Shown here piece by piece: positions 8,428 through 64,000 of a DNA stretch of 64,000 bases. The notes beneath the pieces were generated by a model, which was given only the letters and a program-made list of their open reading frames with translations, ran no database searches and was not told the origin of the DNA. Numbering within the stretch: position 1 is the first letter of the stretch; each line of letters starts with the position of its first letter. Both the position numbers and the translations under genes were made by a program. The DNA is from Actinomyces viscosus (lineage in GTDB: Bacteria > Actinomycetota > Actinomycetes > Actinomycetales > Actinomycetaceae): the NCBI RefSeq assembly GCF_900637975.1, contig NZ_LR134477.1, positions 1,550,001 through 1,614,000 of the forward strand. The letters are read 5' to 3'.

Positions 8428-8484
8428 CGTTCGGTCGGCCGGTTCACCGGCAGCGACATCACCGGTGAACCGGCCGACCGAACG
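8428..8484 (+). terminator. Strong hairpin after hchA
   Basis: A perfect 23-bp inverted repeat (8428-8450 with 8462-8484) with an 11-nt loop sits 36 nt after the hchA stop, followed by GCCCGTTTCCTT. It probably terminates hchA and insulates the next gene, which starts at 8532. Confidence 0.75.
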
Positions 8485-48602: not shown

Positions 48603-49070
48603 GAGTGTCCTAACGGTGTGATGACGCTCCGCGGGAGGAGACGTTCAACTGGGGAGACTCCCCCGGAATCGTTCACGGGGAGGGTCATGCACTGCCGGTT
48701 CCTGCTGAGGCATGAGCCTCAGGTCCGGGGCTGGTGCGGTCAGCGGCGTGGTGCAATCCGCGCGGCCGACGGCGTCAGCATAGCAGCCCCTTCGCGCAGT
48801 GCCTAACGGAACACCGGTGAGCAACGCCGAACACTCCGCCGTTATTCCACACATGCTCGACCCGACCACACCGCCGACCGCCCCCAGATCCTGCCGGGCG
48901 CCTCCATCAACCCTCGCGGACGCACCGTAGGGCCCGCGGACGGCCCCAAAGGGGGCAGTCCGCGGGCCCTACGGTGCGTCCGCGGCGTCGGCGACCGGTG
49001 AGAACTGGCCCTCACTCGGACATACACAACGGGTCCCTGCTAGGCCCTTGCTCTCCCCGGCCCGACGGCC
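48603..49070. other. Gene-free stretch upstream of rho
   Basis: Holds the rho promoter and leader (48603 to about 48900) and a very long perfect hairpin beyond it. No ORF has coding-like codon use. A long leader is expected for rho genes, which are often autoregulated; no specific attenuator could be assigned. Confidence 0.45.
48915..48984. terminator. Perfect 27-bp hairpin between FMN reductase gene and rho
   Basis: 48915-48941 pairs perfectly with 48958-48984; the 16-nt loop can itself fold (GCCCC/GGGGC). It lies 87 nt after the FMN-reductase stop and should terminate that operon. Its exceptional length could also mark it as a dispersed palindromic repeat. Confidence 0.7.
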
Positions 49071-55868: not shown

Positions 55869-56360
55869 GGGATCTCCGGATTCCTGGCATAGATGACAAG
55901 GGTCTGCCTCGTGAACCACCACCGGACGCTTCCACCAGCCGTTCAGGAGACGGAAAGGCTGCCCGTGATGACAAAGACCACTGTTTCACAAACCGACTGT
56001 TTGGGAGTAGCGAACACACAAAACACGCACGAGGTCACAATCTCAACACAACTGTGATCTAGGTTTCAGACAACCGGCACGACGCGATCTTGTAGGTATT
56101 CCACAACATTCATGTGCTGTACCTGTGCTGGCACTGTGCCCCTCCTATCAGAGAGACCGCGTTGCGGTTGTTCCAAGCCTCCAAACAGACAGCCTTCATC
56201 TCTGTTGAGCCACAGTTGCCTTCAGCATTTTCTCAGACGACTACCGCCTTCAGACCTCTTGCACCTACCTGTTGGGACACACTCAGGGGCGCCGTCGAGG
56301 CAGGAGCTGTTCCTGGAACGACGGCGCCCCTGTGAGACGCTCGGTGAGACGTGAGGAGCG
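55869..56360. other. Long upstream region of the surface-protein gene
   Basis: About 490 bp, lower in GC than its surroundings (especially 55975-56130), with several short dyads such as CACAACTGTG (56047-56056). It should contain the promoter and leader of the surface protein on the minus strand. The right end holds the terminator of the upstream TPR gene. No coding region was seen. Confidence 0.4.
56284..56332 (-). terminator. Intrinsic terminator after the ATPase-TPR cassette
   Basis: Perfect 14-bp outer stem (56284-56297 with 56319-56332); the 21-nt interior can fold further (CAGGA/TCCTG). It begins 29 nt downstream of the 29-bp repeat copy at the TPR gene end. It is probably the original lysA operon terminator, displaced by the inserted cassette (inference). 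Confidence 0.8.
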
Positions 56361-56389
56361 TCAGCCCTCCAGACGCAGCAGGTCCTCGA
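56361..56389. repeat. 29-bp direct repeat, distal copy (end of TPR gene)
   Basis: Identical over 29 bp to 59862-59890. It encodes the last nine codons and TGA of the TPR protein (EDLLRLEG plus the preceding partial codon), in the same frame as in lysA. Flanking bases differ on both sides. Confidence 0.95.
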
Positions 56390-58559
56390 GCTCCCTCCGG
56401 ATCTCCAGCGACTCCAGGTAGGCAGCCACCACCGCATCCCAGTCACCACGAGCCCGAGCCACCCGCCCCACATTATCTAGGACAACCGACAGATCCCGAC
56501 GAGCCTCCGAAGTCCCCAACGACTCCGCTAAGCCCCTCCGGATCTTCAGGGATTCCCTGTAAACTGACTCCGCCAAATCCCAGTCGCCACGAGCATGAGC
56601 CATGTCACCCACATGATCGAGGGCAACCGCCAGGTCTCGGCGACCCTCCGGCGTCCCCAGCTCCTCCACGAGCCCCCGAATCACTCCCAGCGACTCCTGG
56701 TAAGCAGTCTCTGCAGCATCCCAGTCACCACGGGTCTCGGCCACCCGCCCCACATTGCCCAGAGCGACCGCCAAGTCGCGTTGAGTCTCCGGCGTCCCCA
56801 GCTCCTCCACGAGCCCCCGAATCACTCCCAGCGACTCCTGGTAAGCAGTCTCTGCAGCATCCCAGTCACCACGGGTCTCGGCCACCCGCCCCACATTGCC
56901 CAGAGCGACCGCCAAGTCGCGTTGAGTCTCCGGCGTTGCCAACGACCCTGCTAAGTCTCTCCGGATCTTTAGGGACTCCTGGTAAGCAGTCTCTGCAGCA
57001 TCCCAGTCACCACGGGTCTCGGCCACCCGCCCCACATTGCCCAGAGCGACCGCCAAGTCGCGTTGAGTCTCCGGCGTTGCCAACGACCCTGCTAAGTCTC
57101 TCCGGATCTTTAGGGACTCCTGGTAAGCAGTCTCTGCAGCATCCCAGTCACCACGGGTCTCGGCCACCCGCCCGACGCTGTTCAAGGCGATCGACAGGTC
57201 ACGGCGGGACTCCGGCGTCCCCAACTCCTTCTCCAGCCCCCGAGCCAGCCCCAGCGACTCCTGGTAAGCAGCCTTAGCCGAGGTCCAGTCACCACGGGTC
57301 TCGGCCACCCGCCCGACGCTGTTCAAGGCGATCGACAGGTTACGTTGAGTCTCCGGCGTTGCCAACGACTCTGCTAAGTCTCTCCGGATCTTTAGGGACT
57401 CCTGGTAAGCAGTCTCTGCAGCATCCCAGTCACCACGGGTCTCGGCCACCCGCCCGACGCTGTTCAAGGCGATCGACAGGTCACGGCGGGACTCCGGCGT
57501 CCCCAACTCCTTCTCCAGCCCCCGAGCCAGCCCCAGCGACTCCTGGTAAGCAGCCTCCGCGGCATTCCAATCACCACGAGCCCGAGCCACATCGCCCTTA
57601 TTGTCCAAAGCCACCGATAGATAACGGTGCGCCTCAGGCGTCCCCAACGACTCCTCCAGCCCCCGAGCCAACCGTTCCAGCTCCCGAGCTGCTGGTTCGG
57701 CAACGTCAACAGCTCCGAAAGTCATGGCGATGTCCAGAACCGCATCCGCCACCTGAGAGCGGAGAGGGGCCGGAAAATCAGCGAGGGTCTCCAGGACGGC
57801 CTTGAGATTCACCTCCACGGTGACGGCGTCGTCGAGCAGACCGCCGATCTCGGCGCCGGTCAGTCCTCTGAATGCCGACGCCAACGGAGATGGATCCTCG
57901 GGCAGAGCATCCAGGACCTCTCTGGCCCTCCAGGGCTCGGTAGGCAGCAGACGCCGGGCCCGGTCCGTCTCCCGGATGGTGATGGCGAGTTCGGGTGTCC
58001 GCCGATCCGAAGGAACAGTAATACTCCAGGTAGAGCGATGCCGAGAACCATCGTTTGCTCCCACGGAGCTAGAACTGTCGTCCTCTTCGCGGCGCTGCGG
58101 CCGGTCCACCAGTTCCCTGGAACTGGAACCGATGACGCAGGTCAAGGACCGGATGGACCACAGGTCTGCGGCCTCGTGGGAGGCGTCACCGAGCAAGGCG
58201 AACGGCCCGCAGACGATGACGCATCCGCTCCCGGGACGAGCCAGGCGTATCCGCATCTCGTTGAGTGCGTACAAGACGCTACGACGTACCTCGTCATCCC
58301 ACAGATCCAGGAAGAGAACACCGGGAACGGGGAGGTGGCGGCTCAGCCATGAGGTCAGAAGCCACTCCGGTTCAGACCAGGGCTCATGAGCCCGTTGGCA
58401 CCACAGTGCGGCACGTTCCTTCATGTCCTGAGTCTGGGCACGAGTCTGTGTCGCAATCATCACGACGGTGGGCTCATTCCTCGTCCACTCCAAGTGGCGG
58501 CGCAGATCGGACCAGGCATGGTCGACGCTCACCGTCGAGGGGGCAGTCGGGACGCGCAT
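56361..58559 (-). CDS. TPR-repeat protein with globular N-terminal domain; candidate conflict-system sensor/effector
   Basis: 732 residues. Residues 1 to about 180 form an alpha/beta-looking domain (TVVMIATQTRAQTQDMKERAALW, VPGVLFLDLWDDEVRRSVLY, GCVIVCGPFALLG) that suggests a Rossmann- or NTPase-like sheet without a Walker A. A Ser/Asp-rich linker (about 160-190) and a helical middle (about 200-310) follow. Residues about 312-732 are nine tandem 47-residue TPR-like units with consensus RDLAVALGNVGRVAETRGDW...AYQESL. Several are identical at DNA level. It starts 1 nt after the ATPase stop. The last nine codons copy the end of lysA. Confidence 0.8.
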   Translation of the reverse strand: MRVPTAPSTVSVDHAWSDLRRHLEWTRNEPTVVMIATQTRAQTQDMKERAALWCQRAHEPWSEPEWLLTSWLSRHLPVPGVLFLDLWDDEVRRSVLYALNEMRIRLARPGSGCVIVCGPFALLGDASHEAADLWSIRSLTCVIGSSSRELVDRPQRREEDDSSSSVGANDGSRHRSTWSITVPSDRRTPELAITIRETDRARRLLPTEPWRAREVLDALPEDPSPLASAFRGLTGAEIGGLLDDAVTVEVNLKAVLETLADFPAPLRSQVADAVLDIAMTFGAVDVAEPAARELERLARGLEESLGTPEAHRYLSVALDNKGDVARARGDWNAAEAAYQESLGLARGLEKELGTPESRRDLSIALNSVGRVAETRGDWDAAETAYQESLKIRRDLAESLATPETQRNLSIALNSVGRVAETRGDWTSAKAAYQESLGLARGLEKELGTPESRRDLSIALNSVGRVAETRGDWDAAETAYQESLKIRRDLAGSLATPETQRDLAVALGNVGRVAETRGDWDAAETAYQESLKIRRDLAGSLATPETQRDLAVALGNVGRVAETRGDWDAAETAYQESLGVIRGLVEELGTPETQRDLAVALGNVGRVAETRGDWDAAETAYQESLGVIRGLVEELGTPEGRRDLAVALDHVGDMAHARGDWDLAESVYRESLKIRRGLAESLGTSEARRDLSVVLDNVGRVARARGDWDAVVAAYLESLEIRRELEDLLRLEG
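56364..57626 (-). repeat. Nine tandem 141-bp coding repeats, some identical
   Basis: The period is 141 bp (47 codons). Units 56650-56790 and 56791-56931 are identical, and the next two (from 56932) share long identical blocks. Outer units are more diverged. The repeats alternate two linker types (SLGTPE with LGVIRGLVEEL or LGLARGLEKEL, and SLATPETQ with LKIRRDLA), pointing to unequal recombination and gene conversion. Confidence 0.9.
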
Positions 58560-58560
58560 G

Positions 58561-59841
58561 CTAGCCCTCGTCGAGAAGGCTCTCCAGCAGGGGGTGCACC
58601 CCGAACCAGTCGACCGTTCCGTTGCGATAACACAACACGTACCCGAGTGCCTGGAGAGTCCAAGCCTCCGAGGTCAGTTCCCGAGGCACGATGAGCTGGT
58701 GAGTCTCCTTCACTTGGCGAAGAATCGTCCACTGCTCCTGAGTCAACCCGGCGACGGCCTGAGAACGCTGCTGGCGCTCGACCTGGTCGACGTCCTCGGG
58801 GCTCACGGGAAGCGGGCCGTTCTTGAGCAGGAGGCTCGAGACCAGCCGGAACAGCTCACGGAACAGGCCACCTGAGGCTCGGATCACCCGGTCCACCTCC
58901 GCCCCCAGGAGCCGTTCCACGTCACCGTCCGGGGCACGCTGGGCCAGCACCTGACGCAGCAGGTCGATGCCCTCCTGGCAGTTCTCGCCACTGCGCTCCC
59001 GCACCTTGACATTGAGAACCGGCCAGATCTCACCACCCCACCCGGTGGGTTTGACGTACACCGGCACCGTATAGACCACGTGCATCCCGGGCAGTGCCAG
59101 CTCCGAGGCGTAGAGGGAGAACATCGACTCCACGGAGTCACGGACCTCGTCGAAGGTGGATGACCGCCCCCGATAGTGCTCAATGGAGTCGACGATGAAG
59201 ACCGGCGTCTTGTTTGCAGGGAGGCTACTCACGAGATCGCTGAAGAAGGCATGCATCTCCTCCTTGAACGTCTTGCGGTTGGACTCCAGGGCCTTCTTGA
59301 CCTGCGCCCGGAAACTCTCGTCGTCGCGAAGCGTCGCCCTCAGGTCAAGAGAGGCCGGTCCCCCGTTGACGGAGGCGCTGACCTCGGCATCAATGTTGAG
59401 GCGCTGGAAGAAGGTCTGAACCCGACGGTACAGCTTCTGCTTGAGTCCGTCGATCGCCTCGCAGTTGTCAACGAAACCGGCCGCGAGGCCAATGAGAAAG
59501 GTTCCCACTTCCAGTGGAAGCTCGGTGTTGAAGTAATCCTCGATGTCGAAGTAGACGGGGACGTAGACGTTACGATCGAGCTCCTGGCATAGCCGCAGGA
59601 GCTCGGTGGTCTTTCCAGCGCCGCGATAGCCTGAGAGCAGTTGGACCGAACCACCGGCGGTGAAGTCGATCGCGGTGGCGATCTCCGCAACCAGGTCCGG
59701 TCCGGCCGGACCGTCGGGCTGGTCGTAGATCGGGACATAGTAGCGCTCGAACTCCTCTTCCTCGCTGAGGAGCCGAGCACCTTGATAGACGTTCAGCGCT
59801 CTGTAGAAGGCTCTGCGGTAGTCCCGGTCACTGTCACCCAT
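58561..59841 (-). CDS. P-loop ATPase with C-terminal winged helix (STAND/AAA-like), cassette partner of TPR protein
   Basis: 426 residues. Walker A GYRGAGKTT (residues 71-79), Walker B VFIVDSIE (about 214-221), a sensor-like SGGLFRELFRLV (about 323-334), then a winged-helix domain (about 366-424, LTQEQWTILRQV...ELTSEAWTLQALGYVLCYRNGTVDWFGVHPLLESLL). A 30-residue amphipathic segment precedes the core. It starts 20 nt after lysA with a weak ribosome site, so read-through from lysA is likely. The architecture is that of signal-transduction NTPases that pair with repeat proteins in microbial conflict systems. It could also be an ORC/KAP-like AAA protein. Confidence 0.8.
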   Translation of the reverse strand: MGDSDRDYRRAFYRALNVYQGARLLSEEEEFERYYVPIYDQPDGPAGPDLVAEIATAIDFTAGGSVQLLSGYRGAGKTTELLRLCQELDRNVYVPVYFDIEDYFNTELPLEVGTFLIGLAAGFVDNCEAIDGLKQKLYRRVQTFFQRLNIDAEVSASVNGGPASLDLRATLRDDESFRAQVKKALESNRKTFKEEMHAFFSDLVSSLPANKTPVFIVDSIEHYRGRSSTFDEVRDSVESMFSLYASELALPGMHVVYTVPVYVKPTGWGGEIWPVLNVKVRERSGENCQEGIDLLRQVLAQRAPDGDVERLLGAEVDRVIRASGGLFRELFRLVSSLLLKNGPLPVSPEDVDQVERQQRSQAVAGLTQEQWTILRQVKETHQLIVPRELTSEAWTLQALGYVLCYRNGTVDWFGVHPLLESLLDEG

Positions 59842-59861
59842 GCCCGGAGTCTATACGGGCC

Positions 59862-59890
59862 TCAGCCCTCCAGACGCAGCAGGTCCTCGA
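59862..59890. repeat. 29-bp direct repeat, proximal copy (end of lysA)
   Basis: Last nine codons and TGA of lysA, identical to 56361-56389 over all 29 bp. The spacing between copies is 3501 bp and spans exactly the ATPase and TPR genes. Confidence 0.95.
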
Positions 59891-61322
59891 TGGTCTCAGG
59901 ACGCAGGATCCAGCCGGACTCGCCCTCGCGGACCCAGCGCACGCCGGGGCGGGTGAAGAGGTTGTAGCTGGAGGCCATGGATCGCCCGTAGGCGCCGGTG
60001 GCGGGCACGGCCAGCACGTCGCCGACGGCGAGGTCAGCGGGCAGGTCCACGTCCCGGACGACGACGTCGCCGGACTCGCAGTGCTTGCCCACCACCCGGC
60101 TGCGCACCAGTCCGGCCTGCGGGTCGGGGCGGCGGTTGGCGACCAGGGCCGTGTAGGCGGCCTCGTAGAGGGCGGGGCGGATGTTGTCGCTCATGCCGCC
60201 GTCAATGCTGACGTAGAGGCGCGAGGTCCCCTCCCCCAGCTCGACGCGCTTGAGACCGGTGACGGTGTACAGCGTGACCGTCGTCGGGCCGGCGACCGCG
60301 CGGCCGGGCTCGATCGAGACGGTGGGGACCTCGTCTCCGAGGCGCTCGCAGGTCTCACGCACGGCCTCGGCGAGGGTGCGGGCGACCTGCGCCGGTGAGG
60401 GCGCTACGGGGTCGGCGCCGGTGTAGGCGATGCCGTAGCCGCCGCCCAGGTCGACCTCCGGGCACAGGTGTCCGGTGTCGACGGCGACCTCGTGGCGCAG
60501 GCCGAGCACCACGCCGACGGCCTCCCGAAAGCCGGCCAGGTCCAGGATCTGGGAGCCGATGTGGGAGTGCAGCCCGTGCAGCTCGAGCTCGGGGGCGGCG
60601 ATGATCGCGTCGATGGCCTGACGGGCGGTCCCGGCGTGGACGGAGAGGCCGAACTTCTGGTCCTCGTGGGCGGTGGAGATGTACTCGTGCCCGCCGGCGT
60701 GGATACCGGTGGTCAGGCGCACCATGACCTTGCCGGTCTCCTCGGGCCCGTAGACGCCACTGGCACGCAGGTCACGCACGGCACGGACGGCAAGCTCGAT
60801 CTCCTCGAGGGAGTCGAGGACAACGTGGCCCAGGTGATGGGTGAGGGCGACGGCGATCTCCGCCTGCGTCTTGCCGTTGCCGTGCAGGCCCACACGGGTG
60901 GCGGCCATAGTGGCCTCCACCCCGTCCACCTCCTGCAGGGCGGCGAGGGACACCGCGAGCTCGCCGCGGCTGGCCGCGTCGATGCCCATGCCCTCCTCCA
61001 GGACCCACCGGGCGACCGTGGTGGTGAGGAAGGCCTTGCCGGCGTAGAAGGCCTCACCGCCGCGCAGTCCGTACCCGGACCAGAACTCCTCGGCCACGGC
61101 GGCGCTCCAGGCGGCGGCGCGGCCGCGCAGGTCAGCCTCGTCCAGGACGAAGACGGGGCTGGGGGCGTCGGTGAGGATCTCGGAGACACTCAGCCCGCCC
61201 AGGGCGAGCTCGCCGTCGGGTGTACGCCGTGCGGTCGTTGGCCACAGGTCGGGGCGGTCCTCGGGCTCGGGGCAGGCCAGGGCCCCAAGTGGCGGCTCAC
61301 CGGCGGGAATCTGGTTCGTCAT
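59862..61322 (-). CDS. lysA: Diaminopimelate decarboxylase
   Basis: 486 residues. PLP-binding Lys in EAFYAGKAFLTT (about residues 90-100); glycine-rich phosphate loop EVDLGGGYGIAYTG; substrate/PLP residues in GKHCESGDVVV and VPATGAYGRSMASSYN. It makes lysine from meso-diaminopimelate. The C-terminus ...WILRPETIEDLLRLEG overlaps the 29-bp repeat. It follows argS by 4 nt. Confidence 0.95.
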   Translation of the reverse strand: MTNQIPAGEPPLGALACPEPEDRPDLWPTTARRTPDGELALGGLSVSEILTDAPSPVFVLDEADLRGRAAAWSAAVAEEFWSGYGLRGGEAFYAGKAFLTTTVARWVLEEGMGIDAASRGELAVSLAALQEVDGVEATMAATRVGLHGNGKTQAEIAVALTHHLGHVVLDSLEEIELAVRAVRDLRASGVYGPEETGKVMVRLTTGIHAGGHEYISTAHEDQKFGLSVHAGTARQAIDAIIAAPELELHGLHSHIGSQILDLAGFREAVGVVLGLRHEVAVDTGHLCPEVDLGGGYGIAYTGADPVAPSPAQVARTLAEAVRETCERLGDEVPTVSIEPGRAVAGPTTVTLYTVTGLKRVELGEGTSRLYVSIDGGMSDNIRPALYEAAYTALVANRRPDPQAGLVRSRVVGKHCESGDVVVRDVDLPADLAVGDVLAVPATGAYGRSMASSYNLFTRPGVRWVREGESGWILRPETIEDLLRLEG

Positions 61323-63144: not shown

Positions 63145-63217
63145 GCCCCGGTAGCTCAGTGGATAGAGCGTCTGCCTCCGGAGCAGAAGGTCGCAGGTTC
63201 GAATCCTGTCCGGGGCA
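63145..63217 (+). tRNA. tRNA-Arg (anticodon CCG)
   Basis: A 73-nt cloverleaf: acceptor GCCCCGG/CCGGGGC, D-loop AGCTCAGTGGATAGAGC, anticodon arm TCTGC CTCCGGA GCAGA with anticodon CCG (reads CGG), T-arm GCAGG TTCGAAT CCTGT, discriminator A. CCA is encoded (63218-63220). tRNA genes of this type are common phage/ICE attachment sites. Confidence 0.97.
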
Positions 63218-63503
63218 CCACCCCCGAGCCCCCGTCGCCACCCGCGGCGGGGGTTTCCTCGACCTTGCGAGGCAGCAGAGAGGCGGGGTCAACGCCGAGG
63301 AACTCGGCCGTGAGAATCAGGTCCTCGACGCTCCACCCTGTGGTGCCCTGAAGCTTGCGGCTGACCGCAGGGCCGGTCATTCCAAGGTGACTGGCGAGGC
63401 TGCGGCGAGTCTTGTGAAGCAGGAACAGCCCCTGGTTCACGGCGGCGCCGACGGCCTCGTGGACGGTCAATGAATCGGTGTCCTGAACTGATGCAATGGT
63501 CAT
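63156..63503 (-). CDS. XRE-like helix-turn-helix regulator, 3' end antisense to tRNA-Arg
   Basis: 115 residues. Helix-turn-helix in residues about 30-75: LHKTRRSLASHLGMTGPAVSRKLQGTTGWSVEDLILTAEFLGVDPASLL, a Cro/CI-like DNA-binding fold. Native-looking sequence ends around residue 90; the tail PRTGFEPATFCSGGRRS is simply the antisense of the tRNA, so the frame runs into the tRNA gene until a chance stop. Such regulators are typical of integrated phages or mobile elements. Confidence 0.65.
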   Translation of the reverse strand: MTIASVQDTDSLTVHEAVGAAVNQGLFLLHKTRRSLASHLGMTGPAVSRKLQGTTGWSVEDLILTAEFLGVDPASLLPRKVEETPAAGGDGGSGVVPRTGFEPATFCSGGRRSIH

Positions 63504-63909: not shown

Positions 63910-64000
63910 TCATTTAGTGTCGTGGTGGATGTTGTTGAGGGCTTGGATGAGGTCGGGTGGGAGTGGGGCGGCGGCTGTGAGGGTGTGTCCGGTGATGTTG
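63910..64000 (-). CDS. C-terminus of an unidentified protein, cut by window edge
   Basis: The last 29 residues are visible (ending IQALNNIHHDTK, then TGA). Codon use is less G/C-biased, with repeated Pro/Ala/Leu. It may be a transposase or another protein of the element next to tRNA-Arg; too short to identify. Confidence 0.35.
   Translation of the reverse strand, partial: NITGHTLTAAAPLPPDLIQALNNIHHDTK

Follow-up and report, generated by a model that had tools for sequence, protein, structure and literature searches.

Some integrative elements use the 3' ends of genes as attachment sites, and the locus described here recalls such elements: in a 64,000-nucleotide stretch of Actinomyces viscosus contig NZ_LR134477.1 (the window), an ATPase gene and a TPR gene lie downstream of the gene that we take to be lysA, a name adopted from an earlier note and consistent with the Pfam domains of the product, and the pair is flanked by a perfect 29-bp repeat that is the end of lysA itself. 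As in integrative elements, the direct repeat is the 3' end of a gene that stays intact; unlike in them, there is no recombinase, the right end is not conserved and there are carriers of the pair without the repeat. A second described process is homology-facilitated illegitimate recombination (HFIR), which is known from Streptococcus pneumoniae, Acinetobacter baylyi, Pseudomonas stutzeri and Escherichia coli conjugation and which combines homology at one end with a micro-homology of mostly 3-10 bp at the other, the insertion generally being accompanied by a deletion of recipient DNA (PMC3240628). The window resembles HFIR in having what is probably a homologous anchor on one side and a short-match join on the other. 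For Vibrio cholerae type VI secretion system clusters with displaced immunity genes, the authors propose HFIR (PMC5361080); there, upstream homology anchors a module and an older 3' piece ends up downstream, as would have happened in the window, with whole immunity genes displaced in the one case and the last lysA codons plus a hairpin in the other. Finally, some 10% of small variable segments of bacterial genomes are reported to be flanked by direct repeats, for which illegitimate recombination was proposed (PMC2884548). The window shares with them a short presence/absence segment with a direct repeat at its base, while differing in that the repeat occurs in only one of the carriers and is merged with the reading frame of the cargo. 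A literature search for this lysA locus in Actinomyces, judged by titles and abstract openings, found nothing among the papers listed.

The last 29 bp of lysA and of the TPR gene are identical (offset 3501, minus strand; Table 1), the two open reading frames (ORFs) share their frame at the repeat and both terminate in EDLLRLEG*; on all of this the coordinates, the ORFs and the listing of direct repeats agree with what the earlier note had claimed, as they do on the presence of just two genes between the copies, neither of them a Pfam recombinase match. The window contains 22 pairs of exact direct repeats that are 20 bp or longer, and all but the lysA/TPR pair lie entirely within the TPR gene; a 27-mer query (two bases differ from the repeat) with up to three mismatches returns only the two known copies, with no such result in 100 shuffles. 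The stretch is present once in the 3.49-Mb single-contig assembly. Across 49 Actinomyces genomes, a degenerate 23-mer of the lysA tail (at most one mismatch), a pattern that covers the tails of 24 genomes and not those of the other 25, matches at 26 places in these 24, namely 24 times in lysA itself, once in the window's TPR gene and once in G033. With each genome's own tail as query, the best other match in the 2.2-15 kb downstream of lysA was at most 21 of 30 bases in 47 of the 49 genomes, the exceptions being G000 (29) and G033 (26); with 82 lysA tail variants as queries, the corresponding value was at most 23.

What the right copy consists of can be read from two relatives, G014 (Actinomyces johnsonii) and G022 (A. 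oris S64C), which carry lysA, then the ATPase gene, then the TPR gene, with the same left junction as the window. Their TPR proteins have a native end, in which ...ELEDLL (G014) or ...ELDDLL (G022) is followed by 29 residues of their own, GTPQAQQDVSTS...LGEL, without a lysA tail, and the stop is followed by a common spacer without the hairpin. The TPR genes of G003, G012, G025, G033, G034 and a G005 contig likewise end in their own sequence. Compared with the G014 gene, the window TPR gene is equal at 119 of 146 bases through GAGGACCTGCTG, and beyond it at 2 of 15, where lysA sequence stands instead. This 12-bp string is the longest that the lysA end and the G014 TPR end have in common (0 of 1000 shuffles as long); with the G022 TPR end, 9 bp are shared (22 of 1000). 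The switch is followed by the stop of lysA, then a short spacer, then a hairpin, all of which directly follow lysA in nine pair-free genomes of the clade. Behind the right copy, the flank with its hairpin aligns with what follows lysA in G036, a sister genome without the pair; the pre-hairpin stretch is common to the window and G036 and, by eye, absent from the other eight pair-free sites, and homology with G036 resumes within lysA, 28 bases before its last base. Both repeat copies carry two third-position variants not found in lysA of 11 other clade genomes. Since the native TPR match runs up to GAGGACCTGCTG and then gives way to the lysA stop, a spacer that by eye is of the G036 type and the hairpin, these alignments identify the end of the TPR gene as a composite, in which a native TPR sequence is joined to the end of lysA from a site without the pair. 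Relics of a TPR 3' end in pair-free spacers are not claimed, as alignment scores with the G014 and G022 tails lay mostly within the shuffle range (best in G018, with 1 of 200 shuffles as high for either tail).

We read the 29-bp repeat, with a probability of roughly three in four, as a scar of recombination between a pair-bearing and a pair-free version of the interval between lysA and hom. One parent would have had the ATPase-TPR pair right after lysA and the other only lysA and the hairpin. One exchange would have passed through the long lysA homology; in the other, the last TPR unit would have joined the pair-free lysA end at the chance match of about 12 bp, with codons E-D-L-L in both. The TPR gene would have lost its own tail and gained the last lysA residues, stop and hairpin, its reading frame staying open because TPR and lysA read these codons in the same frame, while the complete lysA tail would also have remained at lysA itself. 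The order of events (whether the pair moved into a pair-free site or a pair-free flank into a site with the pair), the DNA carrier and the recombination enzymes are parts of this scenario that we infer. Of the two origins that the earlier note had offered, short-homology recombination fits best.

The window junction resembles HFIR in how it works. Micro-homology is present at the far junction (12 bp with the G014 TPR gene and 9 bp with that of G022, against mostly 3-10 bp in published cases, and here read from genomes alone), and lysA, which stands at the left in 13 of 13 carriers, could have provided long homology there, although no imported lysA tract could be fixed. A recipient deletion of similar size, general but not universal in HFIR, is not seen; we do not file the junction as a classical product because the G036-type flank was kept with a 29-bp duplication. 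Several points weigh against our reading, including this duplication where published HFIR generally comes with a deletion. Among the genomes compared, the window species is represented by one strain, so that both parents are hypothetical, as is competence of Actinomyces. An imported lysA tract is not proved, as sliding identity and site counts fix no donor: among the last seven blocks of 100 bp in lysA, there are five where no genome is nearer to the window than G036, but in the block from -300 to -200 G036 has 6 differing sites, G001, G020 and G021 have 1 and the carrier G022 has 2, which hints at an imported tract without fixing it. The two shared variants also occur in G009, outside the clade, and so are not unique. 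The contigs of G014 and G022 break inside the TPR array, their left and right parts presumably forming one locus, and the sister relation of G036 rests on one gene, rpoB.

Table 1. Features of the lysA locus in window coordinates.
Feature	Position	Strand	Basis
lysA (diaminopimelate decarboxylase)	59862..61322	-	Pfam PF02784 and PF00278; ORF
Left repeat copy: last 29 bp of lysA including the stop	59862..59890	-	Exact match
TAGACT, leaderless-type -10 box (TANNNT), 6 nt upstream of the ATPase ATG	59848..59853	-	Comparison of intact ATPase genes
ATPase gene, 426 aa; P-loop GYRGAGKT, Walker B-like VFIVDS	58561..59841	-	Pfam, alignment, model
TPR gene, 732 aa; N-terminal alpha/beta domain without P-loop, then 47-aa TPR units; lysA tail replaces native tail	56361..58559	-	Pfam TPR_12; comparison with G014 and G022
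12-bp overlap where TPR and lysA codons coincide; putative crossover	56376..56387	-	Comparison with the G014 TPR gene
Right repeat copy: displaced lysA tail, now the final TPR codons	56361..56389	-	Exact match; flank homologous to the G036 post-lysA flank
Hairpin, probable terminator without U-tract; follows lysA at pair-free sites	56284..56332	-	Fold, consensus

The ATPase has a match in 13 of the 49 genomes (ten full length, three fragments), beginning 21 to 4,348 nt after lysA in every carrier and upstream of hom in the ten carriers where hom is reached on the same stretch; with the pair or its remnants in 13 genomes, the distribution is patchy. Pair-free sites with a homologous hairpin occur in nine of 12 clade genomes, and this matches the expectation of the earlier note that some strains would have lysA followed directly by the terminator, with a single copy of the repeat. 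Within 213 genomes of the family, the ATPase occurs only in the same 13 (1 of 36 genera), and a class sample of 394 genomes gave three matches, the window's own and two weak partial ones. A scan of species genomes returned five loci: G014, G022, G005 (A. dentalis), G003 (A. bowdenii) and L178. In the last of these, from a metagenome-assembled actinobacterium, the pair (L178:250-4584, 46% identity) lies between ORFs that by eye resemble miaA and dapF; these neighbours differ from the lysA site and suggest that the pair can have another address. In L077 (G030), the ATPase is intact and the TPR gene cut down to a short start, an apparent loss in progress.

In an rpoB tree of 48 of the 49 genomes, the window genome stands beside G036 (Shimodaira-Hasegawa-like approximate likelihood ratio test, SH-aLRT, 87), G014 groups with G040, G018 and G031 (82) and G022 with G001, G020 and G021 (96), the branching order among these three groups not being fixed; downstream, G036 likewise comes closest in 17 of 25 comparison windows. 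The presence of the pair, with remnants counted as present, requires at least 12 changes on this tree. The ATPase tree (ten rows, three of seven inner branches starred) does not clearly contradict the species relationships; in it G014 and G022 group together, apart from the window genome (100/99), a grouping that neither proves nor excludes exchange. Among these three carriers, the ATPase has a synonymous divergence (dS) of 0.34-0.49 and the TPR N-domain one of 0.31-0.47, to be compared with the values of hom (0.21-0.27), lysA (0.24-0.33) and rpoB (0.07-0.12), while the ratio of nonsynonymous to synonymous divergence (dN/dS) of the pair is 0.09-0.23. A dS at least that of the core genes compared, together with this dN/dS, points to a pair that has long been in the clade and is kept by purifying selection, not to a recent sweep. 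The case also documents an old, selected presence/absence ATPase-TPR pair tied to one chromosomal address in Actinomyces.

One alternative, which we consider unlikely, reverses the history: the ancestor of the window genome and G036 would have had the pair with its repeat, and G036 would have lost the pair by a deletion between the copies. Such a deletion would yield the G036 site exactly, and it would suit the age of the pair and its many changes on the rpoB tree. On the other hand, the two copies share variants that G036 lacks, the set of nine pair-free clade genomes with the hairpin and two other carriers without the repeat is not explained, and the composite junction would have to arise beforehand anyway.

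Very unlikely, in our view, is site-specific integration at lysA, the other origin in the earlier note, by which the pair would be a compact mobile element with the lysA 3' end as its 29-bp core and a recombinase acting in trans or lost. G014 and G022 carry the pair with the same left junction but with no right repeat and a different, native right end, and no such repeat was seen in the stretch after lysA of G003, G012, G025 and G034 or, by the 23-mer pattern, in two G005 contigs; the same core at both ends of independent copies was thus absent from G014, G022 and the other carriers examined. The 29-bp core falls on native TPR codons, Pfam identifies neither gene as a recombinase, the one transposition gene seen in a partial survey of the intervals of other genomes (scope below) was an IS481-like transposase in G026, and no ATPase relative was found in viral contigs or phage records. 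It also speaks against a mobile module that all 13 genus carriers have the pair at the same place, after lysA, with a divergence at least that of the compared core genes. These points outweigh what integration would account for, namely a direct repeat at the 3' end of an intact gene, the pair-free sites in nine of 12 clade genomes, other cargo in the same interval and a further lysA-tail copy in G033. What survives of 3'-end integration leaving a displaced copy is that the right copy is a lysA tail with its usual hairpin; an attachment-site origin is not supported. That the TPR gene acquired its EDLLRLEG end by point mutation, through chance or codon selection, has a negligible probability: the native last unit is already ELEDLL in G014, but the two copies agree at all 29 bases, third positions and stop included, a lysA-type flank and hairpin come next, and 0 of 100 shuffles matched the repeat. 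Under the recombination-scar reading, a perfect direct repeat at a gene 3' end, normally taken to betray an integrase attachment site, can be produced with no recombinase involved, and relatives can distinguish such a scar from an attachment site. The fusion also endows the TPR protein with the tail of an amino-acid biosynthesis enzyme.

The lysA-hom interval holds different cargo in other species, as had been predicted for this site, namely ABC transporters, MFS and TetR genes, a PhdYefM-type antitoxin and an insertion sequence; this partial survey took in 39 of 49 intervals and, within them, ORFs of at least 100 aa with third-position GC content above 0.72 (48 of 72 of these scanned, 25 of 33 families shown), and the IS481-like transposase in G026 is the only transposition gene among the surveyed intervals. 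A second pair of near relatives is in keeping with the recombination reading: between G003, which has the pair, and G004, which does not, homology on the left ends at the last lysA codons and on the right begins at about the CTGA of the pair-free lysA stop. In G033 (L080), a second, diverged lysA tail lies 31-60 nt after the lysA stop (26 of 30 bases, direct orientation), its short matches being best with the tail of the distant G009. It is a tentative thought, and one we doubt, that the lysA 3' end might be a recurrent recombinase-free landing pad in Actinomyces, with lysA as the anchor and its last codons or stop as the far join. If so, neighbouring species would swap the pair and other cargo in and out at lysA and displaced lysA tails would be left behind: one of 29 bp in the window, one of some 30 diverged bases in G033 and roughly CTGA in G003. 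Two observations speak against lysA as a constant boundary: a stretch of roughly 1.2 kb that follows lysA is common to G025 and G010, the pair lying beyond it, and G005, G012, G033 and G034 have other sequence between lysA and the ATPase gene.

Turning to the genes themselves, the ATPase matches Pfam AAA_16 with E=1.5e-4, under the curated cut-off, and is predicted to have an AAA/STAND-like core followed by helices and a winged-helix-like end; its P-loop and Walker B residues are invariant in the alignment of 10 of 10 intact ATPases. Its model is of low confidence (mean predicted local distance difference test score, pLDDT, 60.8) and shows weak resemblance to a Pyrococcus Walker-type ATPase and to TnsC, Apaf-1 and ORC proteins, with best template modelling (TM) scores in the PDB below 0.35. 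A Tn7-like reading of the weak TnsC fold matches was dropped, given these TM-scores, the low-confidence model and the lack of a transposase. In the TPR protein, residues 1-341 are modelled as an alpha/beta domain without P-loop (pLDDT 84.7), for which no PDB match at E 0.001 or better was found. The repeats of the gene have a period of 141 bp. The TPR units at window positions 56646-57600 are near-identical, with exact repeats of up to 200 bp, which suggests recent homogenisation.

Leaderless promoters are familiar in actinobacteria. A TANNNT box lies 6-7 nt before the start in 10 of 10 intact ATPase genes, against a background of 70 of 7226 ATGs of the same loci, and probably represents a leaderless promoter; a sigma-70 promoter scan found nothing. 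The pair is probably an old transcription unit with its own leaderless-type promoter. The hairpin has a folding energy of -41.3 kcal/mol (z -5.5), a value that none of 200 shuffles reached, and in a consensus of ten sequences 5 of 18 pairs show changes on both sides with the fold kept; a terminator scan that requires a T-run found none.

By domain content, the pair is most likely an NTP-driven sensor or switch, perhaps with a role in defence. The PADLOC models of known anti-phage systems gave no match for the ATPase, while the TPR protein hit a generic TPR model and had one weak match besides; no known defence family was recognised. NTP-dependent conflict systems with STAND or inactive STAND components have been described, the inactive STAND class being almost absent from actinobacteria according to that account (PMC7159879). 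The pair is similar in having an NTPase gene beside a repeat-bearing partner with an N-terminal alpha/beta domain that lacks a P-loop, and differs in lacking a MoxR or vWA partner and a recognised effector domain. ATPase relatives of 24-30% identity occur in eight plasmid records from other phyla; a distant one lies near TPR genes on an Acidisarcina plasmid, and on an Acaryochloris plasmid another directly precedes a large gene whose product, by eye, has TPR, STAND and WD repeats.

Some further observations concern the surroundings. The lysA gene is mosaic within the clade: at about 60420-61220 of the window, G036, G031 and G023 are only 74-87% identical to it, while the lysA end is close to that of G036. 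Exact inverted repeats of 23 and 27 bp lie at 8428-8484 and 48915-48984. A tRNA-Arg(ccg) is found at 63145-63220, and an ORF of 518 aa that is transposase-like by eye occupies 63910-64000 and continues beyond the window (L114:2588-4144), upstream of argS, in a stretch that is mostly unaligned with 11 clade relatives.

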